Shown here in pieces: positions 29,849-59,232 of a stretch of 64,000 nucleotides of DNA. Numbering within the stretch: position 1 is the stretch's first letter; each line of letters starts with the position of its first letter. The DNA is taken from assembly GCF_022009635.1 (NCBI RefSeq), contig NZ_CP091716.1, forward strand, positions 3,921,001 through 3,985,000. The letters run 5' to 3'. A program made the translations under genes and the position numbers. The stretch comes from Variovorax paradoxus (GTDB lineage: Bacteria; Pseudomonadota; Gammaproteobacteria; Burkholderiales; Burkholderiaceae_C). The notes below the pieces were generated by a model. It did not search any database and had not been told where the DNA came from. It saw only the letters and a program-made list of their open reading frames with translations.

Positions 29849-30319
29849 ATGACCGCAGGTTCGACCCGTCGCCGCGCAGGCAGCCGGCGCTTCCCCTTCC
29901 GGATCCTCCCGATGTGCCAGCGCGGGTTCACCCTGATCGAGCTGATGGTGGTGCTGGTGATCATCGGCGTGCTGGCCGCGCTGATCGTGCCCAGCCTGAT
30001 GGACCGGCCCGACCAGGCCCGTGCCACCGCCGCCCGCCAGGACGTGGCCGCGATCATGCAGGCGCTCAAGCTCTACCGGCTGGACAACGGCACCTATCCC
30101 AGCTCGGCGCAGGGCCTGCAGGCGCTGGTTGCCAAGCCGACGACGGGCAAGGCGCCCGCCAACTGGCGCCCCTACCTGGAGCGCCTGCCCGCCGATCCCT
30201 GGAGCAACCCTTATCAGTACCTGAACCCCGGCACGCACGGCGAGATCGATGTGTTTTCGCTGGGCGCCGATGGCGAGCCCGGAGGCGAGAAGGCCAACGC
30301 CGACATCGGCTCCTGGTAG
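29849..30319 (+). CDS. gspG: Type II secretion major pseudopilin GspG (HxcT-like)
   Basis: A 156-residue pseudopilin. The prepilin peptidase site is R-G before F-T-L-I-E-L-M-V-V-L-V-I-I-G, with Glu at +5, and the C-terminal half carries Y-P-S-S-A-Q-G-L-Q-A-L and D-P-W-S-N-P-Y-Q-Y typical of GspG. The ATG used has GGGAG at good spacing and gives a 26-residue leader. An internal ATG at 29912 would give the more usual 5-residue leader (M-C-Q-R-G). GspG polymerises in the inner membrane to form the pseudopilus. First gene of gspGKLMDEF. Confidence 0.9.
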   Translation: MTAGSTRRRAGSRRFPFRILPMCQRGFTLIELMVVLVIIGVLAALIVPSLMDRPDQARATAARQDVAAIMQALKLYRLDNGTYPSSAQGLQALVAKPTTGKAPANWRPYLERLPADPWSNPYQYLNPGTHGEIDVFSLGADGEPGGEKANADIGSW

Positions 30320-30324
30320 GCGCC

Positions 30325-31347
30325 GTGGCTGCAACGGCGGGTAGCAAGGCGGGCGGCGCTCCCGCCCCGGAAGGCCGCCACCGGGGCATGGCGGTGGTGA
30401 GCGCGCTGCTCATCGTCGCGGTGATCGCGGCGATGGCGGCCGCGCTGCTGGGTCGGCAGTCGGCCTTCATCCGCACCACGCAGGGCGACCAGTTCCGCAC
30501 GCAGGCGCGCTGGCTGCTGCGCGGCGAAGTGAGCGAGGCGCAGCGCACGCTGCGTGCGGATGCCGTACGCGAGCCGACCACGCGGCTCGACGGCGCCTGG
30601 AACCGGCCTTACGCACGGCAGGCCTCCGGCCAGGTGGCGGCCGAGGGCGGGCGGCTGCTCAGCGAAATCACCGACGAGCAGGGCAAGTTCAACCTGCGCA
30701 ACCTGGTGGACCAGGGCCGCATCGACCCGGCGGAAGCCGAAGTCTTCATGCGTCTCTGCGCGTTGGTCGGCGTGCCCAGGCCAGCGGCGCAGGCGATCGT
30801 GCGGCGCGTGGCGCTGAGCCTGGGTGGCGCGGACGCATCGCCGGTGGGGGCGGTGTCGGAGGACACGCGCAAGGAGGCCGCGAAGTTCGCCGAGGGCTTG
30901 GGCCTGCCGGCCGAACTTCCGCCCAATCCGCAGGCCCCGCGCCTGCGCGCGCTGGAAGACCTGCTGGCCGTGCCCGGCGTGGACGCGGGCGTGCTCGCGC
31001 GGCTCATGCCTTTCGTGACCGTGCTGCCGGAACGCACCTGGCTCAATGCCAACACTGCACGCGCGGAGGCCGTGGCCGCGGGTGTGGCGGGGCTGTCGCT
31101 CGACCGCGCCCGCGCGCTGCTGACGGCGCGCGACAAGGGCCAATGGTTCATCAACCGCGGCGACTTCGCGAACCGGCTGCGCATGCCTGAACTGGCGGTG
31201 GACGAGGTGCGCATGGGCGTCACGAGCAACTGGTTCCGCGTGTCGAGCGTGCTCTCGACCGGGCGCACGCAGTTCGTGCAGAGCGCTTTGCTGCACGACG
31301 ACAAGGCCGCCTTGCCGCGCGTGGTGTGGCTGCGGGAGGGCGTGTGA
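30325..31347 (+). CDS. gspK: Type II secretion minor pseudopilin GspK (HxcX-like)
   Basis: A 340-residue protein with a GTG start 5 bases after gspG. The leader ends R-H-R-G and is followed by M-A-V-V-S-A-L-L-I-V-A-V-I-A-A-M-A-A-A, the pseudopilin helix. GspK is the largest minor pseudopilin and lacks Glu at +5; here that position is Ser, as expected. The SAM-like domains appear in R-A-L-E-D-L-L-A-V-P-G-V. It caps the tip of the pseudopilus with GspI and GspJ, which are encoded 27 kb away in this window. Confidence 0.88.
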   Translation: MAATAGSKAGGAPAPEGRHRGMAVVSALLIVAVIAAMAAALLGRQSAFIRTTQGDQFRTQARWLLRGEVSEAQRTLRADAVREPTTRLDGAWNRPYARQASGQVAAEGGRLLSEITDEQGKFNLRNLVDQGRIDPAEAEVFMRLCALVGVPRPAAQAIVRRVALSLGGADASPVGAVSEDTRKEAAKFAEGLGLPAELPPNPQAPRLRALEDLLAVPGVDAGVLARLMPFVTVLPERTWLNANTARAEAVAAGVAGLSLDRARALLTARDKGQWFINRGDFANRLRMPELAVDEVRMGVTSNWFRVSSVLSTGRTQFVQSALLHDDKAALPRVVWLREGV

Positions 31348-32489
31348 AAGCGGATGCGCTGCGCCTGATGCTGCCGCCGTGGCCGGGCGATGGCGCGGCC
31401 GACGCGCAGGTGCGCTTCGGCTACCGGCAGCCCGATGGCACCTGGCACGACGGCGGTATGCGGGCACTGGAAGGTCTCGCGCAGAAATTCGCTGCAAAAC
31501 GGATCGAGGTATGCCTGCATCCGAGCGATGTGCCGATGGCCGTGTTCACGCTGCCGCCGTTGTCGGGTGCGCGCTTGCGTGCGGCCGTGCGTGGCGCCAT
31601 CGAGCCTTGCGCGCTGCAGCCTCTAGAAAACCTGGTGACCGGTTTCGGGCCGCGTGCGGCGGACGGCACCGTGCCTGCCGCGTGGATCTCGCGCAGCGTG
31701 ATGGACGGATGGCTCGCGCTGCTGCGCAGGCATGGCTTGCCGGTGCGCGAGCTGCATCTTCCGTGCGCGTTCCTGCCGTATTCGACAGAAGTTAGCGTGG
31801 GGTTTCATGTCGACCGATGGCTGGTCGTTCGTACGGGCAAGAGTCAGGGCTTCGCGCAGTGGTTGCCCGAAGGCGCGGGCGACCTGCCGGGCGATATGCA
31901 GTGGCTCGGCGACGACGAGGCTGATAAGCGCTGGTCCGGCGAGGGCTGGGGTTGGTCGCTGTCCGGTGGCGAATCGGCTGCGGGCGGCATGGGCTCCGCG
32001 GTGGTCGGGCCTGCGGTCGCTTGGGGCGCCCTGGCTTTGGCGGTGTGGCTGACCGGCCTCAATGTGTACGCGAACCAGCTGGCGGCACAAGGCCAGGGCT
32101 TGAAGCGGCAGATGGCCGCACGCGTGAAGGCCGCATTTCCGGACATACCGGTCGTGGTCAACCCGGTGCAGCAGGCGAAGCAGCAGAAAGACGCGCTCGC
32201 GGCCGGCACCGTGCCTTCGGTCAGCGGCGATGCGGCGGGCCTTCTGCGCGGGGCCACGGCGCTGCTGGCGCAGGGCCCGGCCGGCCAGGTTCAGGGCCTG
32301 CGCTACACCGCCGGAGAACTGCACATCCGGTGGCGCGACGGCGGTGCGCCGGGCGCCGAGGAGCGTCGCGGATTGCAGACCCGTGCCACGGAGCAGGGGC
32401 TGTCCGCGACCGTCGATACGGACGGGCTGCACCTGACCGTTGCCGCTGGTACTGCCGAAGACGCTCCAGCCAGGAAGGCCACACCATGA
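31344..32489 (+). CDS. gspL: Type II secretion inner-membrane platform protein GspL (HxcY-like)
   Basis: A 381-residue bitopic protein with a GTG start overlapping the gspK stop. The N-terminal cytoplasmic part resembles the actin-like GspL domain (V-R-F-G-Y-R-Q-P-D-G-T-W, F-T-L-P-P-L-S-G-A-R-L-R-A-A-V-R). A single membrane helix lies near residue 235, followed by a periplasmic ferredoxin-like domain. It recruits the GspE ATPase to the membrane and pairs with GspM, which is next. The sequence is divergent, and the call depends strongly on position. Confidence 0.85.
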   Translation: MKADALRLMLPPWPGDGAADAQVRFGYRQPDGTWHDGGMRALEGLAQKFAAKRIEVCLHPSDVPMAVFTLPPLSGARLRAAVRGAIEPCALQPLENLVTGFGPRAADGTVPAAWISRSVMDGWLALLRRHGLPVRELHLPCAFLPYSTEVSVGFHVDRWLVVRTGKSQGFAQWLPEGAGDLPGDMQWLGDDEADKRWSGEGWGWSLSGGESAAGGMGSAVVGPAVAWGALALAVWLTGLNVYANQLAAQGQGLKRQMAARVKAAFPDIPVVVNPVQQAKQQKDALAAGTVPSVSGDAAGLLRGATALLAQGPAGQVQGLRYTAGELHIRWRDGGAPGAEERRGLQTRATEQGLSATVDTDGLHLTVAAGTAEDAPARKATP

Positions 32490-33058
32490 AGCCCGGGCCG
32501 ACCATGCAGTGGCTGCGCGAAGGCAGGGCACGCTGGCAGGCGCTGCCGCCACGCGACCGCCTTGCGGCAAGCGCCGCCGCCATCGTGCTGGTGCTGGCCG
32601 TGCTGTGGCTCTTCGCCGCCAAACCCGCGCTGGAAACCATGGCCCGCTGGCAGCGCGACCTGCCCAGGCTGCAGGCGCAGTCGCGCGAACTCGACGAGGT
32701 GCTGTCGGGCATGCCCGCGGCGCGTGCGACCCAAGGCGCGACCGCCAGCGAGCCGCCCCAGGCCGGACTGGATCGCGCGGGCCTGCAAGGCGCCTACCGC
32801 ATCGAACTGATCGTGGCCGATGCGCCGCCAGGCGCCGGCAAGGCACCGCCCGCAAAGGCCTGGCGCATCGCTTTCGAGCAACCCGCGCCGGCCGCAAAAG
32901 TCTTCCCCTGGCTGCTGGCGGTTTCCGCCCGCGCCGATCTGGAGGTGACCGGTGTCGTGCTCGACCGCAAGGACGGCACCGATGGCAACGACCCGCAAGC
33001 CAGCGTGCGCGGCGTGGTGGACCTGCAGTCCACCCAACTCTACAAGGACGGCCCGTGA
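32486..33058 (+). CDS. gspM: Type II secretion protein GspM (HxcZ-like)
   Basis: A 190-residue protein with a short cytoplasmic N terminus, one membrane helix at about residues 28-46 (A-A-I-V-L-V-L-A-V-L-W-L-F-A-A) and a periplasmic domain. The opening W-Q-A-L-P-P-R-D-R is the hallmark of GspM. It forms the inner-membrane platform with GspL and GspF. The ATG overlaps the gspL stop (ATGA). Confidence 0.87.
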   Translation: MKPGPTMQWLREGRARWQALPPRDRLAASAAAIVLVLAVLWLFAAKPALETMARWQRDLPRLQAQSRELDEVLSGMPAARATQGATASEPPQAGLDRAGLQGAYRIELIVADAPPGAGKAPPAKAWRIAFEQPAPAAKVFPWLLAVSARADLEVTGVVLDRKDGTDGNDPQASVRGVVDLQSTQLYKDGP

Positions 33059-33081: not shown

Positions 33082-35673
33082 ATGCGCCGATGGACCCTGG
33101 CGTGCTGCATCGGGCTTGCATGCACGACCGCTGGCGCGGCCACCACCGCACCAGTCCCCACCACGGCGCCGGCGCAGGCCGCGCGCGCCGGCAAGGACGA
33201 CAAGGTGGTCCTCAACTTCGTCGACGCGGACATCACTTCGGTGGTCTCCGCGCTGGCCCGCTTCCTGGGCCGCAACTTCCTTTTCGATCCGCGCGTGAAG
33301 GGGCAGATCACGCTGGTTTCCGAAGGCGAGGTGCCGGCCGCCACCGCCTACGGCATGCTCTCGACCGCGCTGCGCATGCGCGGCTTCGCGATCGTCGACG
33401 TGGGCGAGGTGAGCCGCGTGGTGCCGGTGGCCGACGCCAAGCTGCAGGGTGGCTCGGTCAACACGCGCAACCCCGGCGGCGGGCTGGCCACGCGCACCTT
33501 CAGGCTGAACTACGAGAACGCCGAGGCGATGCTGCCGGTGCTCAAACCGCTGATCGCGGCCGAGAACAGCATCAACGCCTACCCGGCCAACAACACGCTG
33601 GTGGTGACGGACTACATCGACAATCTCGAGCGCCTGGCGCGCATCATCGAGAGCATCGACACGCCGACCTCGCTCGACGCCGAAGTCGTCAAGCTGCGCA
33701 ACGGCGTGGCGGTGGACATCGCCGGGCTGGCGACAGAGCTGCTCGAGGGCAGCGGCGAGAAGGGGCGGCGCGACATCGTGGTGCTGGCCGACCCGCGCTC
33801 CAACAGCGTGGTGATCCGCTCGAGCAGCCCGGGGCGGACAACGCTGGCGCGCGAGCTGATCGCCAAGCTGGAGAACGCGCAGAGCGACCCTGGCAACCTG
33901 CATGTGGTGTACCTGCGCAATGCGCAGTCGGTGCACCTGGCGGGCGTGCTGCGCGGGCTGCTGACGGGCGAGTCGCCCGACGCTTCAGGCACGGGCAGCG
34001 GTTCGGTGCGCGCGGCATTGGGGGCGGGCGGGATGCTCGGCGGCGCGGGGGCGGCCAACGGCACCAGTGGCGGCGCGGCCAACGCGAGCTCGGCGAACCG
34101 CGGCTCGACAGGTGGCACAGGCACCGGCGTCAGCACCATGCCGAGCGGCGGTCTGCGCGGCGTCGCGGGCGGCGCGAGCGCTGGTGGCACGGGCACGCAG
34201 GCAGGCACTTCGGGCAACAGCAATGGCGCAGCTTTTTCCGCGGGCGGCGTCACGGTGCAGGCCGACGCCACCACCAACACGCTCATCATCGCCGCGCCTG
34301 AACCGATGTACCGAAGCCTGCGCCGCGTGATCGACACGCTCGACCAGCGGCGCGCGCAGGTGCTTGTGGAGAGCCTGATCGTCGAGGTGACGGAGCGCGA
34401 TGCATCCGAGCTCGGCATCCAGTGGATGGCCGGCGGCGGCAACGGGCGCGGCGTGCGCGCGGGCACCAATTTCGGCGGCGCCACGCTCAACCCTAATGCA
34501 CGCAACACCATCGAGGCGATGCCGCGCGGGCTCAACATCGGCATCGTCGACGGCACCGTCAACCTGCCGGGCGTGGGCGAGATCCTCAACCTCAAGATGC
34601 TGGCGCGCGCGCTGCAGGCGAAAGACGGCGCCAACATCCTCTCGACGCCCAACATTCTCACGCTGGACAACGAAGCCGCTTCGATCATGGTGGGCAAGAC
34701 GGTGCCTTTCGTGAGCGGGCAGTACATCACCAACGGCAACAGCAGCACCAATCCGTTCCAGACCATCCAGCGCGAAGACATCGGGCTGAAGCTCAACATC
34801 AGGCCGCAGATCTCGGAAGGCGGCACGGTCAAGCTCGACATCTACCAGGAGGTGTCGACCATCGACACGCAGGCCTCGGACATCTCCGGCATCGTCACCA
34901 ACAAGCGTGCGCTGGACACCAGCATCCTGGTGGACGACGGGCAGATCATGGTGCTGGGCGGGCTCATGGAAGACAGCGTGGCCAACGGCACCGAAGCCGT
35001 GCCGGGCCTGGGTGCGCTCCCCGTGGTGGGCAACCTGTTTCGCTACGACAAGCGCCAGCGCGTGAAGACCAACCTGATGGTGTTCCTGCGGCCCTATGTG
35101 ATTCGCGATGCCAACGCGGGCCGGGGCCTCACGCTGGACCGCTACAACTTCATGCGCGCGCAGCAGGGCCGTGCGCGGCCGGTGCCGCATGGGCTGCTGC
35201 CCGATGTCGGCGGACCCGCGCTGCCACCGGCGGACCTGCCGGTTTCAGGGCGGGCGCCGGAGGTCGACCTTCGTCCGCAGAACTGGGAGCACACGCGCGA
35301 ACAGCCTCCGCCGCCTACCACCACGGCCAGCGCGGTGCGCCAGCAACCGGCCGAAGCGGCACCGCCGCCGCCCGTGCTGCGCTCCCAGCTACCCAGGGGC
35401 GTGACCGTCGATTCCGACCCCGCCGTGCTGTACGGAGGCGCGAACGACAAGGTCAGCGTGCTGCAGATTGCCGACGTGACGACCGAGCAGGACGCGGTGC
35501 GCATCGTGAAGCGGGTGCGCATCAGCGGCATCGGTGCTTACATCGTCGGCGGGCCGGGCGGGGAGGGCAATCTGGTGCGCGCCGATGTGCCGCGCGACCC
35601 GAAAGCGGTCGACAACGCGCTGAGCGTGCTGCGCGAACTGGGCTACCGGCCCGAGCTGGTGGTGACGCCGTGA
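33082..35673 (+). CDS. gspD: Type II secretion outer-membrane secretin GspD (HxcQ-like) with unusual extensions
   Basis: An 863-residue secretin. After a signal peptide come N0/N1 (V-V-L-N-F-V-D-A-D-I-T-S-V-V), N2/N3 repeats and the secretin domain, with V-P-G-L-G-A-L-P-V-V-G-N-L-F and a final T-N-L-M-V-F-L-R-P-Y-V-I. An insertion of about 85 residues made almost only of Gly, Ala, Ser and Thr (residues 300-388) interrupts N3. Beyond the secretin, 170 residues follow. They are Pro-rich at first, then end in a module of about 70 residues that looks like a SPOR domain. A GTG at 33055 overlapping the gspM stop is an alternative start, but the ATG gives a cleaner signal peptide. It forms the outer-membrane pore. 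Confidence 0.92.
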   Translation: MRRWTLACCIGLACTTAGAATTAPVPTTAPAQAARAGKDDKVVLNFVDADITSVVSALARFLGRNFLFDPRVKGQITLVSEGEVPAATAYGMLSTALRMRGFAIVDVGEVSRVVPVADAKLQGGSVNTRNPGGGLATRTFRLNYENAEAMLPVLKPLIAAENSINAYPANNTLVVTDYIDNLERLARIIESIDTPTSLDAEVVKLRNGVAVDIAGLATELLEGSGEKGRRDIVVLADPRSNSVVIRSSSPGRTTLARELIAKLENAQSDPGNLHVVYLRNAQSVHLAGVLRGLLTGESPDASGTGSGSVRAALGAGGMLGGAGAANGTSGGAANASSANRGSTGGTGTGVSTMPSGGLRGVAGGASAGGTGTQAGTSGNSNGAAFSAGGVTVQADATTNTLIIAAPEPMYRSLRRVIDTLDQRRAQVLVESLIVEVTERDASELGIQWMAGGGNGRGVRAGTNFGGATLNPNARNTIEAMPRGLNIGIVDGTVNLPGVGEILNLKMLARALQAKDGANILSTPNILTLDNEAASIMVGKTVPFVSGQYITNGNSSTNPFQTIQREDIGLKLNIRPQISEGGTVKLDIYQEVSTIDTQASDISGIVTNKRALDTSILVDDGQIMVLGGLMEDSVANGTEAVPGLGALPVVGNLFRYDKRQRVKTNLMVFLRPYVIRDANAGRGLTLDRYNFMRAQQGRARPVPHGLLPDVGGPALPPADLPVSGRAPEVDLRPQNWEHTREQPPPPTTTASAVRQQPAEAAPPPPVLRSQLPRGVTVDSDPAVLYGGANDKVSVLQIADVTTEQDAVRIVKRVRISGIGAYIVGGPGGEGNLVRADVPRDPKAVDNALSVLRELGYRPELVVTP

Positions 35674-38320: not shown

Positions 38321-38504
38321 GCCTTTGTTCAGGAGCTTTTAGAGGCCGTGTTCCCGAGCTTTTTTCGGGCTGCTGTCACCTCGTAAATCGAAGATTAACT
38401 CCGTCGCCAGAGGGGCGACGCAGGTAGCGAAAAGGCGGCGCGGTCACAACGAGATCCGCCGTCTTTGGTAGCTCATTTCTCTTGGTCCAATCAAAGGAGT
38501 TTCC

Positions 38505-39957: not shown

Positions 39958-39975
39958 ATGTCACGTGAACGTCAC
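39958..39975 (+). promoter_or_regulatory. PHO-box-like direct repeat
   Basis: ATGTCAC and ACGTCAC are separated by 4 bases, giving the 11-base spacing of a PhoB site (consensus CTGTCAT-N4-CTGTCAT). An A/T-rich stretch lies just upstream. It is 77 bases before the STN-domain gene that opens the signalling block. A third GTCAC copy follows at about 39990, out of the 11-base register. A 257-base gap surrounds it, with no ORF of interest and no clear terminator. Confidence 0.5.
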
Positions 39976-40828: not shown

Positions 40829-41385
40829 ACGAAGGCATGTCCTCCACGCTGCGAGCGCGCATGGTGGCACGCTATGTCGAACTGCGCAGCAAGCTCGAAC
40901 GCATCGTCGGCTCGCGCGACGACGCCGCGGATGCGATGCAGGAAACATGGTTGCGGCTTTCCACGACGAGTTCCAGCACGAGCGATGGGGGCACGGTGAA
41001 CAACGCCGACGCCTACCTGCTGCGCATGGCCGCGAACATAGCGACCGACCAGTACCGGCAAAACAATGTGCTCCTGGTGCACGGTGAGATCGATGAGCTG
41101 ATGCACATCGTCGACGAGGTGAGCGACCCCGAACGCATCGCAAGCGCGCGCAGCGACGTTCAGGCCCTGAGCCAGGTGCTCGGGCGCATGCCGCGGCGAC
41201 GCCGCGAGATCCTGGTCGCGGCGCGGGTGGAGGGCCAGCTCAACGACGAGATCGCCCGGCGCTTCGACGTCTCGCTGAGCACGGTCGAAAAAGAGTTGCG
41301 CGCGGCGCTCGAGTTCTGCAAGCAACACTTGCCTGACGTGGAGGCCGCACAGCGCGGCCGTTTTGCCGGTCCGAGAAAATACTGA
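40825..41385 (+). CDS. ECF sigma factor, FecI/VreI-like
   Basis: A 186-residue sigma factor. Region 2 includes D-A-A-D-A-M-Q-E-T-W-L-R-L and D-A-Y-L-L-R-M-A-A-N. Region 4 is L-G-R-M-P-R-R-R-R-E-I-L and the helix-turn-helix N-D-E-I-A-R-R-F-D-V-S-L-S-T-V-E-K-E-L. This is the iron-starvation (FecI) class, which works with FecR and a transducer. Start and stop overlap its neighbours (ATGA and TGATG), making a tight transducer-sigma-anti-sigma operon. Targets are probably the adjacent secretion and exoprotein genes. Confidence 0.9.
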   Translation: MNEGMSSTLRARMVARYVELRSKLERIVGSRDDAADAMQETWLRLSTTSSSTSDGGTVNNADAYLLRMAANIATDQYRQNNVLLVHGEIDELMHIVDEVSDPERIASARSDVQALSQVLGRMPRRRREILVAARVEGQLNDEIARRFDVSLSTVEKELRAALEFCKQHLPDVEAAQRGRFAGPRKY

Positions 41386-51800: not shown

Positions 51801-54800
51801 GCCCGCCGGCACCGTGCTGCCAGTGGACGCCGTGCTCACGGGCACGCTGGCCCTCCCGGCGGGCACGGTGGTCGCCGCCAACATCTACAACGCCGACGGG
51901 TCGCTGGCTCATGCGGCCGGCACGGTGCTGGGAAGCGCCACGACGCTGGGTGCCGGCGTGCGCCTGGGTGCGGGAACGGCATTGCGTACGGCGGCGGGCG
52001 TGGCCGCGCTGACCTGGCCCAAGGGCGTCGCGCTGCCGGTGTACATGACGACCACCGGCCAGACCGTTCTCGCGAGGGGATCGCTGATCCCCTCGACGAC
52101 CGTGGTCGAACTGCCGGGCGGCCAGCCCGTCAATCTGCGGCCTTCGGTGAACGGCGTACAGGGGCGCAACTGGGCGGTGGCACCGATGCTCGGCGAAGGC
52201 GCCACGTCGTGGAGCGTGCAATTGGTGGCGGGCGCCGACCTGGGCTCGGCGGACAGGCGAGCGCTGAACCCGGCTTCGAAGGCGGCCATCCGGCTGGGCG
52301 ATACGCATGCGATCAGCGACTACACGATCAGCGCTTCCAAACGTTTCGTCTGGGCGCCCAATGACTGGGGTCTTCCAGAGGGAGAAGAAGCCGACCCGGG
52401 CACGTGCGAACTCGAACCCAGCATATGCGTCGAGGTTCCAGGCGGCCCGCCGGTCATCACGGGAAGCCAGATCGTTGCGCCAGCCTTCAGCGTGCTGCGA
52501 ACCGGCACCGGTGACCTCGAGATGCTCGCCGCCGGCGACATCCGCATGGACTCGCTCTACGGCGTATATACCGCCGGCACGGCAACAGCGGCCGACGCCG
52601 CATACAACCGGCCGCGTGGCAAGGACGCCAGCGGCTCGCCGATCGGCCCGCAGTCCGAACTGCTCGATTACAGCGCCAGCCTGGCGACATACCGCGCGTG
52701 GTATCCCGACCAGGGTGGCAACGTGCTGGTCGCGGCCGGCGGCAATCTGGTGGGGGACCTGATGGGCTCGGGGCTGTCGAGTGCGTTGCCGGGCAACTGG
52801 CTGTGGCGGCAGGGCTCGGGCACCGCCGCCATCGACGAGGCGATTCCCACGGCGTGGTGGATCAACTTCGGCGCCTACACAGCCACGACGGAGAAAAGCA
52901 ACCGCAAGGCACCGGACCTCACAGGTTTCACGGGCTTCGGCACGCTGGGCGGCGGCGATATCCGCATCCGCGTGGGCGGCGAGGCGGGAACGATCGGGCT
53001 GCGCAGCACCCAGGGCGCCGGAGCGGTTTCCACCGACCGAAGCGAAGGGCTGGTGGTCGCGGTGGGCAGCACGGGGCGGGTCGGCGCCGACGGCACACTC
53101 GCACTGACTGGCGGTGGCGACGTCGACATGCGCATCGCCGGTGCGCTCAATCCCAATCGGAATCTGAGCACGGGGTCGGAAAAGCTCGTCCTCACCGGCG
53201 CCATCGCGAACCTGCGCGGCGCCACCGAGGTCAGCGCCGCATCGATCGGCAGTCTGGGTCTGCAGTATCTGTCGGGCACCTTCAGGTTCTCGGACCCTGT
53301 CGACGCACGTGGCATCGATCCGTTCTCGGCCAGCTATGCCAGCGCCAAGGGCGGCATCAACCTCGTGCCAGGCGACACGGCGATCTATCTCCAGACACGT
53401 GGTGACCTTGTGCTCGGCGGGGCGTCCGATCCGGGGCGTGGAGATACGCCGAACAGCTCCGCCTTCTCGGTCGGCGGCCAGTCGCCGAACGCGGGTGGGC
53501 AGGGGTGGTTCAGCCTCTGGACGAATCGCAGCGCGATCAATCTCACCTCCGCAGGCGGCCACCTGACCCCGACCATGGCCGCGGGCGACAACAGCCAGTT
53601 GCGCACCACGTCGAAGGATGCGTGGATCGTCTATCCCTCCATCTTCAGGGCCGCAGCCCTCACGGGTAGCCTCTACTACGGTTACGCGGCATTGCCGCTG
53701 ACCGTGGGCGATCCCACGAAGATCAACTACGGCCTGACGCTCGCGCCGTCTGCCAATGGCGAACTGGAAATGCTCGCGGGCGGGTCGATTTACGCAGGCC
53801 AGTATTCGGTCGGCATGTCCGGCACGGGCACGCCGATACCCACGCCGTTCAATCCCGCATTCGTCGGCCAGGCGTATGGTGCTGGCGAAGTGCTTGCGAC
53901 CAATCTCGCGACGGGCGGACTGGCGATCGCTGGCGCCAGGAACGTGCCCGAGATCACGCCGACGCTCTTCGCATTCGGCCCGAACACGGCAGCGATCGGA
54001 ATCGACCGTGCCGCAGACGCGGCGCCGGTGCGGTTCTACGCCGCGGGCGGAGACATCATCGGGCTGAAGACCGGCGAAGTCGTCACGCGCGGCACGGAGA
54101 CCTGGTACAACGCCGCCGCTGCGATCCGCGTCATGGCGGGCCGGGACATCGTCAACACCGGTGTCGCGCCCGGCAGCTCTACGGTGGGCTCCAGGGATCT
54201 TTCGGGAAGCCTGCGCGGCAACCTCATCGTCCACACCAACCCCACCGACGTCTCCATCGTCTCCGCCGGCCGAGACATCCTCTACGCCAACTTCGACATC
54301 GCCGGCCCCGGCACGCTCGAAGTCTCCGCCGGTCGCAACCTGCTGCAGGAAGACCGCGGCGGCATCACCTCGATCGGCCCGGTGGTTCCGGGCGACACGC
54401 GCCCCGGCGCTTCCGTTGCGCTGATGGCGGGCATCGGCGCCGGTGCGCTCGACATGTCGGCGATCCGCGCGCGCTACCTCGATCCGTCGAACCGCGCCGA
54501 AGCCGGCACGCCGCTGGCGCAGCAGCCGGGCAAGGCCGCGAAGACCTACGAGGCCGAACTGGCCGCATGGCTCCAGTCGCGCTACGGCTTCAGCGGCGGC
54601 AGCACGGCGCAGTCGCTCGCGTACTTCGATGCACTCGCGCCCGAGCAGCAGCGCATCTTCCTGCGCGAGGTGTACTACGCCGAGCTGCGCGCGGGCGGCC
54701 GCGAGTACAACGACGCCAGCAGCAGCCGCGCGGGCTCTTACCTGCGCGGCCGCGAGATGATCGCCACGCAGTTCCCCGAGCGCGACGCCGGCGGCAACAC

Positions 54801-55689
54801 GATCGCGCGCGGCGGCGACATCACGATGTTCGGCGGCTCGGGCGTGCGCACCAATTTCGGCGGCGACATCGAGATGCTGGCGCCGGGCGGCAAGATCATC
54901 CTGGGCGTGCAGGGCGCGGTGCCGCCCTCCACGTCGGGTGTGATGACGCAGGGGCAGGGCGACATCCGCCTGTTCAGCGAAGGCAGCATGCTGCTGGGCC
55001 TGTCGCGCGTCATGACGACCTTCGGCGGCGACATCCTGGCATGGTCGGCCAAGGGCGACATCAACGCGGGGCGCGGTTCGAAGACGACGGTGCTGTTCAC
55101 GCCGCCCAAGCTGGTCTACGACAACGTGGGCAACGTCGAGATCTCGCCGCAGGTGCCGAGTTCGGGCGCGGGCATCGCGACGCTCGCGCCCATCGCCGAG
55201 GTGCCGCCCGGCGACGTGGACCTGATCGCGCCGCTGGGCACCATCGACGCGGGCGAAGCCGGCATCCGCGTGTCGGGCAACGTGAACGTGGCGGCGCTGC
55301 AGGTGGTGAACGCGGCGAACATCCAGGTCAAGGGGCAGTCGGCGGGCCTGCCGGTGGTGGCCGCGGTGAACGTGGGGGCGCTGACCAATGCCAGCGCGGC
55401 CGCGTCGCAAGCCACGGTGGCGGCGCAGGAAGCATTGCAGCGCGATCGCGCCGCGGCGCGGCAGGCACTGCCTTCGGTGTTCACGGTGCGCGTGCTGGGC
55501 TTCGGCAATGAGCCGTTGGGCGGCGGCGGTGCCAGTGACGACAGCAACGGCAGCAACAACAAGCCCTCGGCCACGCCGGTCAGCTACAACCCGCGCAGCG
55601 TGATCCGCGTGCTCGGCGGTGGCGGCACGCTGCCGCCCGCGGTGAGCCGGCAACTGACAGACGAGGAGCGCGCCAACCTGCAACGCTGA
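42796..55689 (+). CDS. Giant filamentous haemagglutinin-like exoprotein (PdtA-like TpsA)
   Basis: A 4297-residue secreted protein. The signal peptide ends G-P-A-H-A (residue 50). A two-partner-secretion/haemagglutination domain follows at about 145-330 (A-I-L-N-W-E-T-F-N-V-G, Q-I-K-A-N-G-T-V-L-V-A-N-R-N-G-I). Thousands of residues of Gly/Ala-rich beta-helix repeats come next. About 3870-4270 is the DUF3739-type C-terminal region (G-G-D-I-E-M-L-A-P-G-G-K-I). This is the build of Pseudomonas PdtA, a phosphate-starvation exoprotein. It starts inside the DUF4880 gene. No TpsB pore gene is in the window, so the partner must be elsewhere. Adhesion is the likely role. Confidence 0.92.
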   Translation: MVLNPHTTRSRRFKAEFREPAAGGDLRLTPLSRAVALALAALGAWGPAHASQTFSPAWFASKGAAQAGAAQTGRLPNGMPASSLTNPAQQQQQANAQLQRSISNLNLAAQAIAAQQAAQAAAREAASKEPSSVPDGLADGGLKVDTNSLTAGWHNAQAPVQSQQADGRTNVAIQQTGDRAILNWETFNVGRNTTVEFRQQADWAALNRVNDPQARPSQIQGQIKANGTVLVANRNGIVFSGSSQTDTRNLVAAAANISDAQFKANGIHSTKTADSYAPSFTDAGGAVRVEAGARITTSTPASVKQGGGYVLLMGQEVSNAGTITTPRGQAQLAAGDFFIVRPGQGSAANQASTTRGNEVSPQFNADSAAGHVANTGLMVASEGDITLAGRKVLQDGVALATTTVDTRGTIHLLNSASDKQGSVTVTQRALNAVLLDDKNGRTALDSQREAAIAESGRQNSLRTATGAFDNLSLLDDRQDLSRIEIVSGGNVLFEGGSMTLATGGQLAVSAGKVGGRSTVADGARLDVSGAVGVQVAMSSNNVQINVQGNEQRDAPLNRDTSKLNNANVWIDRRKLVRVAAGVGGYDKERWYTSGGLLEVGGYLGLQGHGIGEWAAQGGSVTFGGGEVVTQAGSNINLSGGTLDVQTGFIRQSWLKGADGRLYEVSNAPANTSYTGLYKGFEDEHKRWGDKTTGYFYNPLIGPQSRLENGYTVGRDAGRLVVATGAAVLEGDITAVAYQGPRQTAKGDAALDGYAQSHNAAAQAAQVVFGNYTTGYNTDPGQGAVGAFRALAPTFRHIVFDDAQPELGAALSPETALPQERKNTLYLSSKRLSGFGLGAITALAEESVTVDDGIAVSPGGSIELFATKVGVNANLIARGGAIVLGNMATPLMRAGLTPRLLPTPAADNPGEVVVAKDAKLDARGLWTNLQLDPANGLGLPYLDGGRVDIRSAGAVTLAAGTSIDVSSGGAVLVDGKTRGGRGGDVTLGADMTLGQSTTHGLLTIDGDIRGYGVNGGGTLKLISGGGLVVGGQVRGTGGMLSAGDAAPLDLILLQDYQVRAGDVLPLDYLYERTRARPGEAIGAVPIFAIDPAQPVVLAADWKPPEASGGANSSYTLQVIVNGTPRNIAVGRAADGAVIETLPAGSTLVGIVPFTLKMFPLDYVVPANVFPNGIAVTPQNITAAAGKAAPVDFTIASGTQVAAGSVFRQDIATRPNTAIDPSVLQSGFSRYDLNGHLGVIVADNARLDVRMPAYRFADGAKTVATGSDPATGLALWTPPLWSEDAVKGVLTQRGGASLTLQSMVGSGSASTAGGPVAVRPGAAIDVDPGQSIGLLGRDVTVEGTLSAPGGMIAIDRPRSALPGTPGLIWIGDHAVLDVAARAATARDVFGRTYGQVPDGGTISIGGALDWDKTSEADAADAFIVIRSGARLDASGASAVLDPSGSAPGRAPAPITVASNGGSIVLKSNHGLYLDGTLRAAAGGEGAAGGTLGLALASPVYIKETTRGDVLRHRELVLAQTQGDSAVAAAQTIADARGDLLTGTARVGVDRIQAGGFGNLSVLVDGALGFDGNVALGMSQSLRLYAGTYAHGETATADSTVSLSAPYVRLAGTARRATGEGTVMPMAHWENGPSRQQGGGQFSVLADLVDLRGTVGFGTRSELNLGLTSYTVDRRGFEEVELTSRGDVRLLGANLVTPGNVRLIAEQLYPGTGTSNTVMAGYVQGADARQSYAAGSVLSIRRHGDGEAAMPYSAFGSITLAAESIEQGGIVRAPLGQLTLGTAFDAVTAATSRVTLLPGSITSVSGEGLLMPYGGTVDGLSYQYNGQPVALKAVGDLERGVKVNTRHLEAQAGSVLDLSGGGSLAGAGFVSGRGGSVDVLKTALANSNPANGYSRAGNAVYAIVPGSAANYAPEAPEAGFGTPGVGQRVTVPAGVPGLPAGTYTLMPSSYSLLPGAFRVEIGAADRIGLSGVTSVGNGSYVAGGYLGVANTSIREALPNQVVITPGDKVRSYSGYNETDYNAFVLADAARRGFLRAGLTSDAKTLDIMLSRPPAEDADRTALKFDGELRLGAQRASTGFGGTVNVRNLGEVLATGQAADEQLAGASVQDRELNKLGGSRLVLNGTLGTSYGQLGRIVPITGAGSLIVRSGASLSAGELILAGAPRQGGGGLTIEEGASLGTIGRGTASYGSNDGYVFTGTGVIALSNGWFNLLLAQPSAAEGPGTVSIDIGSCVSAACNGSTRLVSEGTLAIATGGALTLADNVSYGTRNLSLALAAVNLGEDASIAAASAGGQLPSGLVLNQAKLNRLLAGNTAIGAPALETLILNARDAVNTYGAVKLDASSLDRLVLGTPAIYGYGAAGDVVAIRAGEFAWAGAEGTPGAAVSGLLGSGTLDIAARSIVLGHGPYAQASGTQTDARLALGFADVKFTASERVTSNGSSTLSVYQRQGAYTPGEGYAHEGGNLVVSSPLLTGQAGSRTRIAAGGAITMVAPPGAGSAASSDALGATLELRGKSIDLEGSVVLPSGRLVLAATDDIVLGASSRIDLSGRKTSLFDVDKYSWGGDLVLSSATGNIAQVGDSVIDVSARNNRGGTVEATALAAGAGRVDLLGAIRGSSSGTYDAGGTVVPYGAGELTVRAQALGDFVDLNNRLNEGGVFGARRFQVKQGDLVVGDGVKAREVSIAVDGGSLRVDGRIDASGLQVGSIRLAAKGDLTVNGTLDAHGTGLRVDSYGKIIDSPNRAIVDLTSTEGMLTLGGGARIDLRAGTDVPLGTRAGQNDGRARGTLDLNAPRVGADDVAVTINGTPAIQGAKTVAVNAFRSYSDAPMADLPDVSGYRPQLVTQGYLDRIDGESRIFIDAAQGNAGLRSRLSGLGSYHLRPGVEIVSDRSTNPHGDLTIDGDLDLSGYRYGPGADRNDPARRGYGEPGRLVIRAAGALNVHGSINDGFAPPPATLDDNGWVLTRGPSPAFGGDIVVPIDNVVLDTGTTFPAGSTLNYSVSVAAMTLPAGTVLPVDAVLTGTLALPAGTVVAANIYNADGSLAHAAGTVLGSATTLGAGVRLGAGTALRTAAGVAALTWPKGVALPVYMTTTGQTVLARGSLIPSTTVVELPGGQPVNLRPSVNGVQGRNWAVAPMLGEGATSWSVQLVAGADLGSADRRALNPASKAAIRLGDTHAISDYTISASKRFVWAPNDWGLPEGEEADPGTCELEPSICVEVPGGPPVITGSQIVAPAFSVLRTGTGDLEMLAAGDIRMDSLYGVYTAGTATAADAAYNRPRGKDASGSPIGPQSELLDYSASLATYRAWYPDQGGNVLVAAGGNLVGDLMGSGLSSALPGNWLWRQGSGTAAIDEAIPTAWWINFGAYTATTEKSNRKAPDLTGFTGFGTLGGGDIRIRVGGEAGTIGLRSTQGAGAVSTDRSEGLVVAVGSTGRVGADGTLALTGGGDVDMRIAGALNPNRNLSTGSEKLVLTGAIANLRGATEVSAASIGSLGLQYLSGTFRFSDPVDARGIDPFSASYASAKGGINLVPGDTAIYLQTRGDLVLGGASDPGRGDTPNSSAFSVGGQSPNAGGQGWFSLWTNRSAINLTSAGGHLTPTMAAGDNSQLRTTSKDAWIVYPSIFRAAALTGSLYYGYAALPLTVGDPTKINYGLTLAPSANGELEMLAGGSIYAGQYSVGMSGTGTPIPTPFNPAFVGQAYGAGEVLATNLATGGLAIAGARNVPEITPTLFAFGPNTAAIGIDRAADAAPVRFYAAGGDIIGLKTGEVVTRGTETWYNAAAAIRVMAGRDIVNTGVAPGSSTVGSRDLSGSLRGNLIVHTNPTDVSIVSAGRDILYANFDIAGPGTLEVSAGRNLLQEDRGGITSIGPVVPGDTRPGASVALMAGIGAGALDMSAIRARYLDPSNRAEAGTPLAQQPGKAAKTYEAELAAWLQSRYGFSGGSTAQSLAYFDALAPEQQRIFLREVYYAELRAGGREYNDASSSRAGSYLRGREMIATQFPERDAGGNTIARGGDITMFGGSGVRTNFGGDIEMLAPGGKIILGVQGAVPPSTSGVMTQGQGDIRLFSEGSMLLGLSRVMTTFGGDILAWSAKGDINAGRGSKTTVLFTPPKLVYDNVGNVEISPQVPSSGAGIATLAPIAEVPPGDVDLIAPLGTIDAGEAGIRVSGNVNVAALQVVNAANIQVKGQSAGLPVVAAVNVGALTNASAAASQATVAAQEALQRDRAAARQALPSVFTVRVLGFGNEPLGGGGASDDSNGSNNKPSATPVSYNPRSVIRVLGGGGTLPPAVSRQLTDEERANLQR

Positions 55690-55809: not shown

Positions 55810-56472
55810 ATGACCCTCGACACCCAGGCGATTCGCAATGCGCCGGACCGGTTCTCCGGGCTGCTTTCATCGTTTCCATCGCGCACGCCGCTGCCGCTGG
55901 CATGGCGGGCGTTCGAGGAGCGCATCGAACGCATCGAGCTGCTGGCGGAGCCCGAGCCGCGCACGCCGTTGCCGAAAGCGAAGTCGGCCGCTCCCGAGGT
56001 CGACTTGCAGGCGCACCTGGCGGCGAACTACCAGGCGCTGCACCGCCGGCTCGAGCGCCAGCTCGGCTGCGCGGACCTGGCAAGCGAATGCCTGCACGAC
56101 GCATGGCTTCGGCTGGGCGAACGGCAGCCCCGCGAGACGCCCGCGAACCCCGACGCCTACATCTATCGCGTGGCCTGCAACCTCGCGATGGACGGCATGC
56201 GCGAGCGCAAGCGCTGGATGGGTCTGAACGAAGATTGCGAAGACGTCGACGTGATCGCCGACCTGCAGCCCGGCCCCGACATGATCGCGGAGGCGCGCTC
56301 CGAGGTGGCGGCAGTCGACCGTGCGATGCAGGGCCTGCCGGGGCGCCACCGCGCGGTGCTGGTCGCGCTGCGATGGCACGAGATGTCGCGGCAGGAAGTG
56401 GCGCGGCGCCACGGCGTGTCGCTGCGCAAGGTGGACACAGCGCTCAGACAGGCCCTGGGCGTGCTGCGCTGA
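55810..56472 (+). CDS. Second ECF sigma factor
   Basis: A 220-residue sigma factor. The first 75 residues form an unusual extension. Region 2 follows (L-A-S-E-C-L-H-D-A-W-L-R-L, D-A-Y-I-Y-R-V-A-C-N-L-A-M-D), then region 4 (L-P-G-R-H-R-A-V-L-V-A-L-R-W, S-R-Q-E-V-A-R-R-H-G-V-S-L-R-K-V). It lies downstream of the exoprotein on the same strand with no FecR gene beside it, so its anti-sigma partner may be the orphan DUF4880 protein upstream of the exoprotein or the FecR protein. The Pseudomonas counterpart locus has one sigma factor as I recall, so this one is extra. Confidence 0.85.
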   Translation: MTLDTQAIRNAPDRFSGLLSSFPSRTPLPLAWRAFEERIERIELLAEPEPRTPLPKAKSAAPEVDLQAHLAANYQALHRRLERQLGCADLASECLHDAWLRLGERQPRETPANPDAYIYRVACNLAMDGMRERKRWMGLNEDCEDVDVIADLQPGPDMIAEARSEVAAVDRAMQGLPGRHRAVLVALRWHEMSRQEVARRHGVSLRKVDTALRQALGVLR

Positions 56473-56530: not shown

Positions 56531-57169
56531 ATGATGAAGTGGATGTCGCCCCTGCGGGTCACGATGCAGGAGCTGGATGCCAAGCTCTCGAAGATCGTCG
56601 AGCGCGCACGCGAGCAGCCGGTGGCGGTCAACCGCTACGGCTCGCCCTGGGTCTGGATCGTGAGCCACCATGCCTGGGTGCAGGCCGACAACCTGCGCGC
56701 GCTGGTGCCGCGTGGCCACCCGCTGGTGCCGTTGCGCGACCAGGTGGAAGACGCCTTGCGCTACGAGCGCGACCTGCTGGCCGACCTGGAGCGCCAGCAC
56801 GGCATCACGGTCGGCGCGGCCACGCTGTTCAAGTGCCTGATGCTGCAGATCATCTATTCGCTGGAAGACGGCGAGAAGGTGCACGAGAGCCTCACCTACA
56901 ACATGCTGTTCCGCTGGTTCGCGGGCTTCGAGAAGTTCGCCGACGAGCTGCCGGCACGGGCCCAGTTCACGCACGAGCTGAACGCGGTGGGGGCCGATGC
57001 GCGCGCGGTACGCATCATCACGCGCTGCCTGTCGCACTCGTTCCTGCCGGAGTCGGGCGACGGCGATTTCAGAGTCAATCGCGGCTTGTTGCATGCGCTC
57101 TCGGCCTGGGCGTCCGCCGCGCCCGGCACGGTGGGGCCGGATGCAAGGCCGCATGCCGTGGCGCGCTAG
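56531..57169 (+). CDS. Phd/YefM-like N terminus fused to a transposase N-terminal (DUF772-like) domain; PhdA-like
   Basis: A 212-residue protein. Residues 1-55 look like a Phd/YefM antitoxin DNA-binding domain (T-M-Q-E-L-D-A-K-L, A-V-N-R-Y-G-S-P-W-V-W-I-V-S). Residues 55-155 match the N-terminal domain of IS5/IS1182 transposases (V-P-R-G-H-P-L-V-P-L-R, L-M-L-Q-I-I-Y-S-L, Y-N-M-L-F-R-W-F-A-G-F). No DDE catalytic part is present, and no toxin gene lies beside it. I recall that the Pseudomonas gene next to pdtA (PA0691) is named phdA after prevent-host-death, so this may be its counterpart. The role is unknown; a DNA-binding regulator is plausible. Confidence 0.75.
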   Translation: MMKWMSPLRVTMQELDAKLSKIVERAREQPVAVNRYGSPWVWIVSHHAWVQADNLRALVPRGHPLVPLRDQVEDALRYERDLLADLERQHGITVGAATLFKCLMLQIIYSLEDGEKVHESLTYNMLFRWFAGFEKFADELPARAQFTHELNAVGADARAVRIITRCLSHSFLPESGDGDFRVNRGLLHALSAWASAAPGTVGPDARPHAVAR

Positions 57170-57196
57170 ATGCGCCGCCGCGCGCGGTCCGCGAGG

Positions 57197-57640
57197 CTAG
57201 CGCGCGGGCCGGGCGATGCCCGGCGTCGCGGGCTGCGGCAGCACCGGCGCGGCGATGCGTTCGGTGATGCCGGCCTTGTCGATCATCACCCCATCGGCCT
57301 CGATGGACTTCAGGGTGACCGAGCGCGTCAGCGTTTCGCCGACGCGGTAGGGCCGCGCCGCGGCATCGTTGACGGCCAGCACGGCCACGCCCTGGCCGGT
57401 GCCCTTGATCAGCCCCTTGACCGCGACATTCGCGCGCAACTCGCCGGGGCCGAACCATGCGGCGAGCGCGTCGCCCGCGGGGTCCGCTTGCGAGCCTTGT
57501 GCCGGTGCGGCGGTCGCTTGTTGCGCAGGCCGGGTCAGCAGCTTGCCCCAGGTCACGAGGCCCGCCACGACGAGCAGCAGGCCCGCCGCATGAACGATGT
57601 ACTTCGCGGATGCGGCGGACGGCTTGAGCTGAAAGATCAC
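57197..57640 (-). CDS. gspC: Type II secretion protein GspC, short form (HxcP-like)
   Basis: A 147-residue bitopic protein with an N-terminal membrane helix (residues 14-32) and a periplasmic HR domain (W-F-G-P-G-E-L, V-K-G-L-I-K-G-T-G-Q-G-V-A-V-L, V-G-E-T-L). It lacks the PDZ or coiled-coil end of longer GspC proteins. GTG start with GGAAG six bases before. GspC links the inner-membrane platform to the secretin. It is divergent from gspHIJ and separated from gspGKLMDEF by the exoprotein block, yet those sets together make a complete system. Confidence 0.83.
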   Translation of the reverse strand: MIFQLKPSAASAKYIVHAAGLLLVVAGLVTWGKLLTRPAQQATAAPAQGSQADPAGDALAAWFGPGELRANVAVKGLIKGTGQGVAVLAVNDAAARPYRVGETLTRSVTLKSIEADGVMIDKAGITERIAAPVLPQPATPGIARPAR

Positions 57641-57748: not shown

Positions 57749-58234
57749 ATGAACGTGCGCAACCGAGAGAGCGGCTTCTCGCTGATCGAGCTGATGGTCG
57801 TGATGGTCATCGTCGGCATCGCGACCGCGGCAATCAGCCTCAGCATCGCGCCCGATCCGGCGCAGGAACTGCGGCGCGATGCGCATGAGCTGGCCCGGCA
57901 CTTCGCGGTCGCGCAGAACGAGGTGCGTGTCGACGGCCGCGTGATCGCATGGCAGGCCGACAGTGGCGGCTATCGCTTCGCGCGTGGGAGCTGGCAGTCG
58001 GTGCCCGGCAGCGCGATACCCGTGGTGTCGACGGCGGGCACGCTCGACACCTTCGCGCGCGACGACGAACTGCGGCCCAGGCAATGGCGCGAAGGGCCGG
58101 TCGAAGTGACACCCGCGCAGCCCGTGCTGCTGACCTCCGAACCCATCGGCGCCGAGTGGCAAGTGGCGCTGCGGCGTGGCGATGTCACCGTCATCGTGCG
58201 GCGCGATGCAGCCGGCAGCTACGAGGTGCGATGA
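57749..58234 (+). CDS. gspH: Type II secretion minor pseudopilin GspH (HxcU-like)
   Basis: A 161-residue pseudopilin with leader R-N-R-E-S-G before F-S-L-I-E-L-M-V-V-M-V-I-V-G; Glu at +5 is present. The C-terminal part fits GspH. ATG at 57749 gives a 9-residue leader; ATG at 57740 or 57713 are alternatives, and no strong ribosome binding site settles it. GspH sits between the main pseudopilus and the tip. The stop overlaps gspI. Confidence 0.88.
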   Translation: MNVRNRESGFSLIELMVVMVIVGIATAAISLSIAPDPAQELRRDAHELARHFAVAQNEVRVDGRVIAWQADSGGYRFARGSWQSVPGSAIPVVSTAGTLDTFARDDELRPRQWREGPVEVTPAQPVLLTSEPIGAEWQVALRRGDVTVIVRRDAAGSYEVR

Positions 58235-58614
58235 GCATGCGCACGCCACGCTACCGCATCGCCGGTTTCACGCTGATCGAAGTGCTGATTGCGCTGACCA
58301 TCGTCAGCGTGGCGCTGGCCGCGATCGTGCGCGCGTCCAGCCTCACGATCTCGAACCTCGGGCTTCTGCAGCAGCAGTCGCTGGCCATGCTGTCGGCCGA
58401 GAACCGTGTGGCGGAACTGCGCATCGCGCAAAGCCCGATGGTGCTGGGCACGGCCAGCACGCCGTGTCCGCAGGGCGGCGTGCGGCTGGTCTGCCGGGTC
58501 GAGACCGGGGCCGTCGCCGACGGACTGCGAAATGTGACGGTGGACGTGTACCTGGCGGAAGACAGCGGGCAGCGGCTGGCCTCGCTGCAGACGCGCCTGG
58601 CGGAGCCTCGCTAG
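58231..58614 (+). CDS. gspI: Type II secretion minor pseudopilin GspI (HxcV-like)
   Basis: A 127-residue pseudopilin, leader ending R-I-A-G before F-T-L-I-E-V-L-I-A-L-T-I-V. It carries the common GspI block N-R-V-A-E-L-R and a pair of cysteines. It nucleates the pseudopilus tip with GspJ and GspK. The ATG overlaps the gspH stop (ATGA), and gspJ begins on the base after its stop. Confidence 0.9.
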   Translation: MSMRTPRYRIAGFTLIEVLIALTIVSVALAAIVRASSLTISNLGLLQQQSLAMLSAENRVAELRIAQSPMVLGTASTPCPQGGVRLVCRVETGAVADGLRNVTVDVYLAEDSGQRLASLQTRLAEPR

Positions 58615-59232
58615 ATGCAAGCCACCCGAGAGCAGCAGCGCGGCTTCACGCTGATCGAAGTGATGATCGCCATCGCGCTCATGGCCGTGTTGAGCGTGAT
58701 GGCTTGGCGCGGCCTCGACAGCGTGACGCGCGCCAACGCCATGCTCGAACAGCGCACCGACAACGTCGCGCGGCTCATGCGCGCGCTCGACCAACTGGAG
58801 CGCGACGTGGCCCTGCGCGCCACCACCGAACTGCCGCCGTCCAAGGCCGCCGGGTTGCTGCCCGCCGCGATGACGGCGCGGCGCCAGGCGGACCTTCCGT
58901 TTTTCGTGGAAATCGTGCGCGCCGCACCCGCCGCGCCGGGCTATTGGCAGCGCGTGCAATGGTGGCAGCGCGGCGGCGTGCTTTACCGGGCGGCGGGGCC
59001 GGCGGCGGCGTCGTTCCCGTTGCCGCCGCCCGACGAGCAGGCGCGCGTGGTGGTGCTGGAGGATGTGTCGGCGTTCCAGTTGCGTGCGTGGGAGCCGGGG
59101 CAGGGCTGGCGCAACCTGCCGGCCGTGGCACCGGCGCGCGCCAACGCGACCGGACTCGAGCTGGCGCTGGGCATGCGGGCCGAAGGGGAGAGCGGGGCGC
59201 AGAGCTTCCGGCGGGTTTTCTCGCTCGACTGA
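58615..59232 (+). CDS. gspJ: Type II secretion minor pseudopilin GspJ (HxcW-like)
   Basis: A 205-residue pseudopilin, leader Q-Q-R-G before F-T-L-I-E-V-M-I-A-I-A-L-M-A. GspJ features include M-A-W-R-G-L-D-S-V and L-E-R-D-V-A-L-R. It joins GspI and GspK at the tip. Starts immediately after the gspI stop. Last recognised secretion gene of the window. Confidence 0.9.
   Translation: MQATREQQRGFTLIEVMIAIALMAVLSVMAWRGLDSVTRANAMLEQRTDNVARLMRALDQLERDVALRATTELPPSKAAGLLPAAMTARRQADLPFFVEIVRAAPAAPGYWQRVQWWQRGGVLYRAAGPAAASFPLPPPDEQARVVVLEDVSAFQLRAWEPGQGWRNLPAVAPARANATGLELALGMRAEGESGAQSFRRVFSLD

Follow-up and report, generated by a model that had tools for sequence, protein, structure and literature searches.

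A probable rearranged orthologue of the Pseudomonas vreAIR-hxc-lapA-pdtA-phdA locus in Variovorax paradoxus

We analysed a 64,000 nucleotide stretch of Variovorax paradoxus DNA (assembly GCF_022009635.1, contig NZ_CP091716.1, positions 3,921,001 to 3,985,000; hereafter the window, whose numbering is used throughout) from a genome of 7.95 Mb in two contigs, whose proteins have Variovorax sequences as their close named relatives. A sequence-only reading had proposed that one continuous block in it, 29849..59232, was a betaproteobacterial counterpart of the Pseudomonas phosphate starvation Hxc/LapA/Vre/Pdt locus. Gene calls and Pfam matches gave the order gspG-K-L-M-D-E-F, lapA/DING, vreA-vreI-vreR, an open reading frame (ORF) with a DUF4880 domain only, tpsA, a second sigma factor gene (sig2), phdA, gspC and gspH-I-J, with gspC alone on the minus strand. 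Every gene named in that reading was present with Pfam or homology support, and its placing of the exoprotein and signalling genes between two gsp blocks is seen in this order. It had overlooked sig2, the DUF4880-only ORF and the minus strand of gspC.

The gsp genes encode components of a type II secretion system (T2SS) resembling Hxc of Pseudomonas aeruginosa; percentages are identities to the copies of strain PA7. The first group comprises gspG for an HxcT-like major pseudopilin (29912..30319; PF08334 1.2e-41; 72%), gspK (HxcX-like, 30316..31347, start approximate; T2SSK_1st/T2SSK; 41%), gspL (HxcY-like, 31344..32489; GspL_C/T2SSL; 34%), gspM (HxcZ-like, 32486..33058; PF04612 1.9e-13), gspD for the HxcQ-like secretin (33082..35673; Secretin 1.6e-46; 60%), gspE for the HxcR-like ATPase (35670..37097; T2SSE 2.4e-145) and gspF (HxcS-like, 37115..38320; PF00482 2e-58; 63%). 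The start of gspG is most likely at 29912 (MCQRGFTLIEL...) instead of 29849. At the other end gspC (HxcP-like, 57197..57640, minus strand; PF11356 2.9e-10) is divergent from three minor pseudopilin genes, gspH (HxcU-like, 57749..58234; N_methyl; 47%), gspI (HxcV-like, 58237..58614; T2SSI 1.6e-12) and gspJ (HxcW-like, 58615..59232; N_methyl, and T2SSJ 2.6e-5, below its curated cut-off; 49%).

Between the two groups, lapA/DING (38505..39794; PF12849 1.2e-16) encodes a protein of the phosphate-binding / low-molecular-weight alkaline phosphatase family, which matched DING and 'alkaline phosphatase' chains in the PDB at 4e-54 to 5e-45. It is preceded by a Pho-box-like promoter element, TCCCGAGnTTTTTTC-N6-CTGTCACC (38350..38380). 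A second Pho-box-like site (ATGTCAC-GTGA-ACGTCAC, 39958..39975) precedes vreA (40067..40828), whose Pfam matches to STN (2.3e-4) and TonB_2 (0.0062) were both below curated cut-offs. There follow vreI for an extracytoplasmic function (ECF) sigma factor (40825..41385; Sigma70_r2/r4_2) and vreR for a FecR-type anti-sigma factor (41385..42383; FecR and DUF4880). The DUF4880-only ORF, an orphan FecR N-terminal (anti-sigma) domain of 124 codons (42431..42805; PF16220 2.2e-9), begins 48 bases past vreR and overlaps the start of tpsA by 10 bases. The pdtA-like tpsA (42796..55689) encodes a two-partner secretion (TPS) exoprotein of approximately 4300 residues with TPS (2.2e-22) and DUF3739 (4.9e-40) domains, 59% (N-terminal) and 62% (C-terminal) identical to PA7 PdtA; listed as an ORF from 42403, it probably starts at 42796. 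The second ECF sigma factor gene, sig2 (55810..56472; Sigma70_r2/r4), is followed by phdA (56531..57169), whose product has a weakly Phd-like segment (Phd_YefM E 0.042) and a DUF772 transposase N-terminal domain (5.9e-8).

Phylogeny of GspE and GspD, a check named in the sequence-only reading, placed both proteins with Hxc. The GspE tree held 57 of 59 loci (L142 and L182 were left out as no ORF matched the Walker-A pattern), and in it the window grouped with Variovorax, Azoarcus, Achromobacter and Pseudomonas Hxc sequences (16 of 57 rows, support 97/94), apart from the second T2SS of its own genome and from the other T2SSs of PA7. Window GspE was 72% identical to PA7 HxcR versus 61% to that second T2SS; its identity to other Pseudomonas T2SSs was 54-58%, and the ATPases of two further T2SSs in PA7 gave 55-58%. 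In a GspD tree made without the other GspDs of PA7 and the lapA-linked GspD of Achromobacter, the window, V. beijingensis, the metagenome-assembled genome (MAG) YR752 and Azoarcus joined the Hxc secretins of PA7 and P. fluorescens PfAR1 (6 of 13 rows, support 95/99), apart from the second T2SS of the same genome. Five GspD copies, from one family (f4) and an Achromobacter contig (C30), fell outside this group, and none had lapA, vreA or tpsA in its retrieved surroundings.

Gene order was compared by tblastn of the window proteins against retrieved stretches. The run gspG-K-L-M-D-E-F followed by lapA/DING is kept unchanged in V. beijingensis, in the YR752 MAG and in three Pseudomonas (PA7, PfAR1 and P. 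chlororaphis). V. beijingensis carries the window genes in identical order, as does YR752 up to the contig end (gspJ not reached). The same parts, rearranged, were found in Azoarcus (tpsA-sig2-gspGKLMDE on contig L219 and gspF-lapA-gspJIH/gspC-phdA-vreA-sigma-vreR-tpsA on contig L046) and in Achromobacter deleyi (gspM-E-F-lapA-tpsA-vreAIR-phdA-phdA-sig2-gspHIJC). In PA7 a single block holds all parts of the window except sig2 and the DUF4880-only ORF; read in the direction of lapA, the order is vreAIR, gspJ and gspH opposite, gspC, gspI opposite, gspGKLMDEF, lapA, pdtA and phdA. Since the P. aeruginosa locus is likewise contiguous, the contrast drawn earlier, that the parts are "fused into one cluster" here, falls away. 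In one Achromobacter locus (L167) gspC and gspHIJ share a strand, whereas PA7, P. chlororaphis, Azoarcus and V. beijingensis all have gspC divergent from gspH/J. As separate observations, lapA-like genes number two in Achromobacter UMC71 (L174) and in PfAR1 (L169) and three in P. chlororaphis (L170).

Within the order, GspE was found at E<=1e-180 in 47 of 399 genomes, that of the window included. Of the other 46, four (G348, G444, G529, G555) had their surroundings retrieved, and these contained no lapA, vreA or tpsA; a Paraburkholderia stretch (G212) reached by another search showed none of them either. One genome of the same genus (G122) gave no GspE match at E<=1e-180 and no PhdA match, so not every member of the genus carries the block.

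The STN protein was 35% identical to the ORF at the VreA position in PA7 over 227 aligned residues. Its structural model comprised two confident domains and a loose linker (mean predicted local distance difference test score, pLDDT, 77; predicted template modelling score, pTM, 0.44). The N-terminal domain matched the PupB signalling domain, which has been solved with the anti-sigma factor PupR (TMt 0.87, E 4.9e-6), and the C-terminal domain matched TolA more weakly (TMt 0.71, E 0.01). As modelled, VreA is thus an STN plus TolA/TonB C-terminal protein with no barrel, in the order A-I-R with an ECF sigma factor and a FecR protein, an architecture termed unique by Llamas 2009 (partial text of PMC2729926). 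Common descent, argued previously from the gspG-K-L-M-D-E-F-lapA order and the VreA architecture, is upheld by the trees, the synteny and this model. Two outcomes named beforehand as refuting, a grouping of GspD/E away from Hxc and an STN protein without VreA similarity, did not occur. We are confident that this block is orthologous, in rearranged form, to the vreAIR-hxc-lapA-pdtA-phdA locus of Pseudomonas (PUMA3 regulon), an interpretation that takes in the mechanism proposed below.

Phosphate control was assessed from sequence alone, by scoring against a Pho-box consensus. The best score of the whole window (20.0) was obtained 109 bases before vreA. That score alone is not unusual, because three sites scoring at least as high occurred in about 260,000 scored positions elsewhere in the genome; the weight of this candidate site is in its position and its conservation, as it is kept in all three Variovorax sequences aligned (p<=0.015 by shuffling of the region upstream of vreA). 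Scoring of eight vreA upstream regions gave a combined p of 1.8e-6 with misses included, for a grouping chosen after the single tests which takes in a partial PA7 region (p 0.50), one region each at p 0.14 and p 0.07, and a 639-base Achromobacter stretch. The best 30-base stretch of the lapA promoter was identical at 22 of 30 positions to PA7, PfAR1 and P. chlororaphis and at 23 of 30 to two Achromobacter, which share the right part of the element (p<=0.005 to 0.010 with 200 shuffles; the lineages count as three separate at most); Azoarcus gave no match (p 0.20). A further element, ATGA[AC]...TGA[CA]A, was common to PA7 pdtA, PA7 phdA and three other stretches of the Variovorax genome (the third loosely) and was absent from the window stretches tested. 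The promoter conservation favours a phosphate response of the block.

A number of points weigh against this interpretation. Window LapA is just 36% identical to PA7 LapA. No outstanding Pho-box-like site was found before gspG (p 0.13), the DUF4880-only ORF and tpsA (0.80), sig2 (0.28) or between gspC and gspH (0.16). In P. fluorescens SBW25 hxcR is plant-induced and not phosphate-induced (partial text of PMC2225411), and VreA is dispensable for sigma-VreI activity in P. aeruginosa (partial text of PMC7035377). Expression of the block at low phosphate, and secretion by it, stand as predictions. No ShlB-family (TpsB) match was found in the window, the three from a whole-genome family search all lying elsewhere. 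Lastly, the window secretin has no strict lipobox, the N-terminal motif of a self-piloted liposecretin such as HxcQ. P. aeruginosa HxcQ is a lipoprotein (partial text of PMC3542185), and with strict and loose lipobox patterns we found a strict lipobox approximately 80 residues before the N0 domain in the secretins of PA7, PfAR1, P. chlororaphis and Azoarcus. It was also absent from the V. beijingensis and Achromobacter C30-type secretins, and among those lacking it the window secretin alone matched the looser pattern. The Variovorax secretin may reach the outer membrane by another route.

One of the three ShlB-family genes, at C1:3191614-3193110 and 0.76 Mb from the block, is a PdtB homologue, 57% identical to the PA7 pdtB ORF over 504 residues; the other two gave 25% and no match. 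The strongest ShlB match (C1:4790067) was considered as the PdtB partner and rejected, as the PA7 pdtB ORF had no match there. Of the Pdt part of the proposed counterpart, PdtB is missing from the block. Genome-wide there are five DUF3739 exoproteins (tpsA), five vreA-vreI-vreR sets and one PdtB homologue; three of the five loci (the window, L210 and L211) have sig2 after tpsA. The vreAIR-tpsA set at 3.17-3.20 Mb runs on into pdtB, exbD, tonB4 and a PA0696 homologue. Given this distant pdtB set and the five vreAIR sets, what is a single locus in Pseudomonas is here split in two with its signalling module multiplied.

Two further features were seen near other vreAIR-tpsA sets. Between tpsA and the next vreAIR at about 4.77 Mb of C1 (L155:2750-4613), an HtrA-like protease gene (2750-4138) and a gene for a small TonB-C-like protein (4140-4613) were recognised by eye, preceded by the element ATGAAGTTTTTATGACA. 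An apparent second, unrelated two-partner system (L156:10826-19744 with C1:4790067) lies near one set, with an ORF of about 2970 residues close to the strong ShlB match.

PhdA of the window is 37% identical to that of PA7. The best 80 of 482 confirmed matches gave 79 loci. Of these, 58 matched from the Phd-like part onward, and all 58 were linked to pdtB or tpsA within the stretch (52 Pseudomonas with pdtB; three Variovorax, one Azoarcus and two Achromobacter with tpsA). The Pseudomonas loci are close kin and so do not represent 52 separate events. No other cluster genes were found at the remaining 21, where only the DUF772 part matched. The 58 of 58 linkage points to PhdA being a dedicated partner of the exoprotein system; a role of P. 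aeruginosa PhdA in biofilm and extracellular DNA is cited in the partial text of PMC7035377. We rejected the idea that PhdA belongs to a toxin-antitoxin pair on its neighbours (sig2 and gspC) and its weak Phd match, in an assessment that included no toxin-family search. In a fold search, no PDB structure matched the PhdA model at E<=0.001. Both Achromobacter loci have a tandem phdA pair (among L167, L089, L174, L170 and L169).

If the block works as in P. aeruginosa, PhoB would respond to low phosphate by binding the site upstream of vreA and the lapA promoter element, and would switch on the vreA-vreI-vreR operon. PhoB and sigma-VreI, once VreR releases it, would then switch on the remaining block. 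The Gsp/Hxc machine would export the LapA/DING protein, which would bind or free phosphate outside the cell, and the giant TPS protein would exit via the distant PdtB homologue and act at the cell surface. The orphan FecR N-domain protein and sig2 would form an added layer of sigma control, not seen in the PA7 locus.

That an ordinary Burkholderiales T2SS lies here beside an unrelated FecIR/TPS module, its resemblance to Hxc being convergent, is hardly credible. The genome does hold a second T2SS and further secretins, but both trees oppose convergent assembly, as does the adjoining of the same parts in Pseudomonas, Azoarcus, Achromobacter and Variovorax, and the lapA promoter element is common to lineages. 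We also regard a shared ancestry with later rewiring as unlikely: the main cue would be another one (surface contact or a plant signal) acting via VreA/VreR and sig2, with PhoB controlling only lapA and vreAIR. Clear Pho-like sites in the window before lapA and vreA only, the extra sigma and anti-sigma-domain genes and the plant induction of hxcR in SBW25 would fit such rewiring. Against it, the 48-base gap after vreR and the overlap with tpsA mean that the DUF4880-only gene and tpsA could be read through from vreAIR, and Pho-like sites precede tpsA at three other loci of the genome (p 0.005, 0.005 and 0.045).

It is also improbable that sig2 and the DUF4880-only ORF are decaying, functionless duplicates. 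The sig2 copies of Variovorax, Azoarcus and Achromobacter form a clade of their own apart from the VreI types, window VreI included, in an ECF tree (9 of 27 rows, one a duplicate; support 95/97), while by best hit no sig2 was found in the PA7 stretches or in the 52 Pseudomonas phdA loci, which cover at most 10 kb per side. No stop interrupts the DUF4880-only ORF in the window, in YR752 or in V. beijingensis, and its conserved tail overlaps tpsA. Decay would be favoured by its 19 homologues, all Variovorax where an organism is named, by the lack of a convincing match in the vreR-tpsA gaps of the other loci of the genome (three covered fully, one partly) and by Variovorax E3 (L209), which has the ORF in two pieces, as it has vreR and gspE. 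On the same side, window and YR752 copies differ at 20/13/33 first, second and third codon positions over 124 codons (29 changed and 22 silent codons), a bias towards the third position that is less marked than in vreR (22/14/61 over 332 codons). Strict pairing of the DUF4880-only gene with sig2 was disfavoured, as the vreR-tpsA gaps at the other two sig2 loci, one covered fully and one partly, gave no convincing match.

Within the orthologous-locus interpretation we would put forward, tentatively and as a doubtful extension, that in Variovorax the single VreI switch has become a two-sigma network of five vreAIR units with their own exoproteins and one shared PdtB. The sig2 product would be held or helped by a VreR-type or free FecR N-domain in a feed-forward arrangement giving ordered surface proteins, and PhdA, its weakly Phd-like segment joined to a domesticated transposase N-domain, would be a dedicated DNA-binding regulator of these exoproteins, not a toxin-antitoxin component.

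Compared with P. aeruginosa PA0674-PA0692, the block is alike in all components except pdtB, in the G-K-L-M-D-E-F-lapA order, in VreA architecture, in gspC divergent from gspH/J and in the lapA promoter element. It differs in that its two gsp blocks flank vreAIR and tpsA, that pdtB, exbD, tonB and the PA0696 homologue are 0.76 Mb off with another vreAIR-tpsA, and that a second ECF sigma factor and an orphan anti-sigma domain are added. In SBW25 hxc also adjoins a DING gene (psp) and then a giant haemagglutinin-like gene; psp is phosphate-induced and its product exported mainly via Hxc, and the partial text of PMC2225411 mentions no vreAIR between these genes. The betaproteobacterial counterpart is real, but as a finding it has been in print since 2009: Llamas 2009 named PUMA3 counterparts in Burkholderia vietnamiensis, Janthinobacterium and Rhodopseudomonas (partial text of PMC2729926). 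By the description there, the cluster of B. vietnamiensis, betaproteobacterial like that of Variovorax, has tpsB and exbBD downstream, which in the present genome lie elsewhere. Janthinobacterium and R. palustris have several vreAIR copies, most followed by tpsA and one with tpsB-exbBD-PA0696, as here, with four PUMA3 copies versus five in the Variovorax genome. Both this type of locus and its presence beyond Pseudomonas have therefore been published already. The features in which this copy varies are sig2, an anti-sigma domain encoded on its own, a pdtB placed elsewhere and a secretin lacking a strict lipobox. Among literature naming Variovorax no paper on the block turned up, in a search that left most subscription journals uncovered.

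The P. aeruginosa 'virulence' locus would thus belong to a broader system for phosphate scavenging and surface proteins, of which Variovorax, Azoarcus and Achromobacter carry other forms and in which gamma- and betaproteobacteria share a promoter element. These hosts allow the roles of VreA, PhdA and the second sigma factor to be studied outside P. aeruginosa.

Neighbouring genes were also noted. Directly after gspJ, at 59290-59784, lies a low-molecular-weight protein tyrosine phosphatase-like gene (PF01451), and a 64% relative in V. beijingensis (L164) is found at the opposite end of the block, adjoining gspG. From their translations by eye, 27005-29707 (minus strand) resembles a long acyl-CoA synthetase (ADP-forming) / acetyltransferase fusion, and 60964-62358 and 63043-63834 (minus strand), an MBOAT-like acyltransferase gene and an SGNH-hydrolase-like gene, resemble a polysaccharide acetylation pair.

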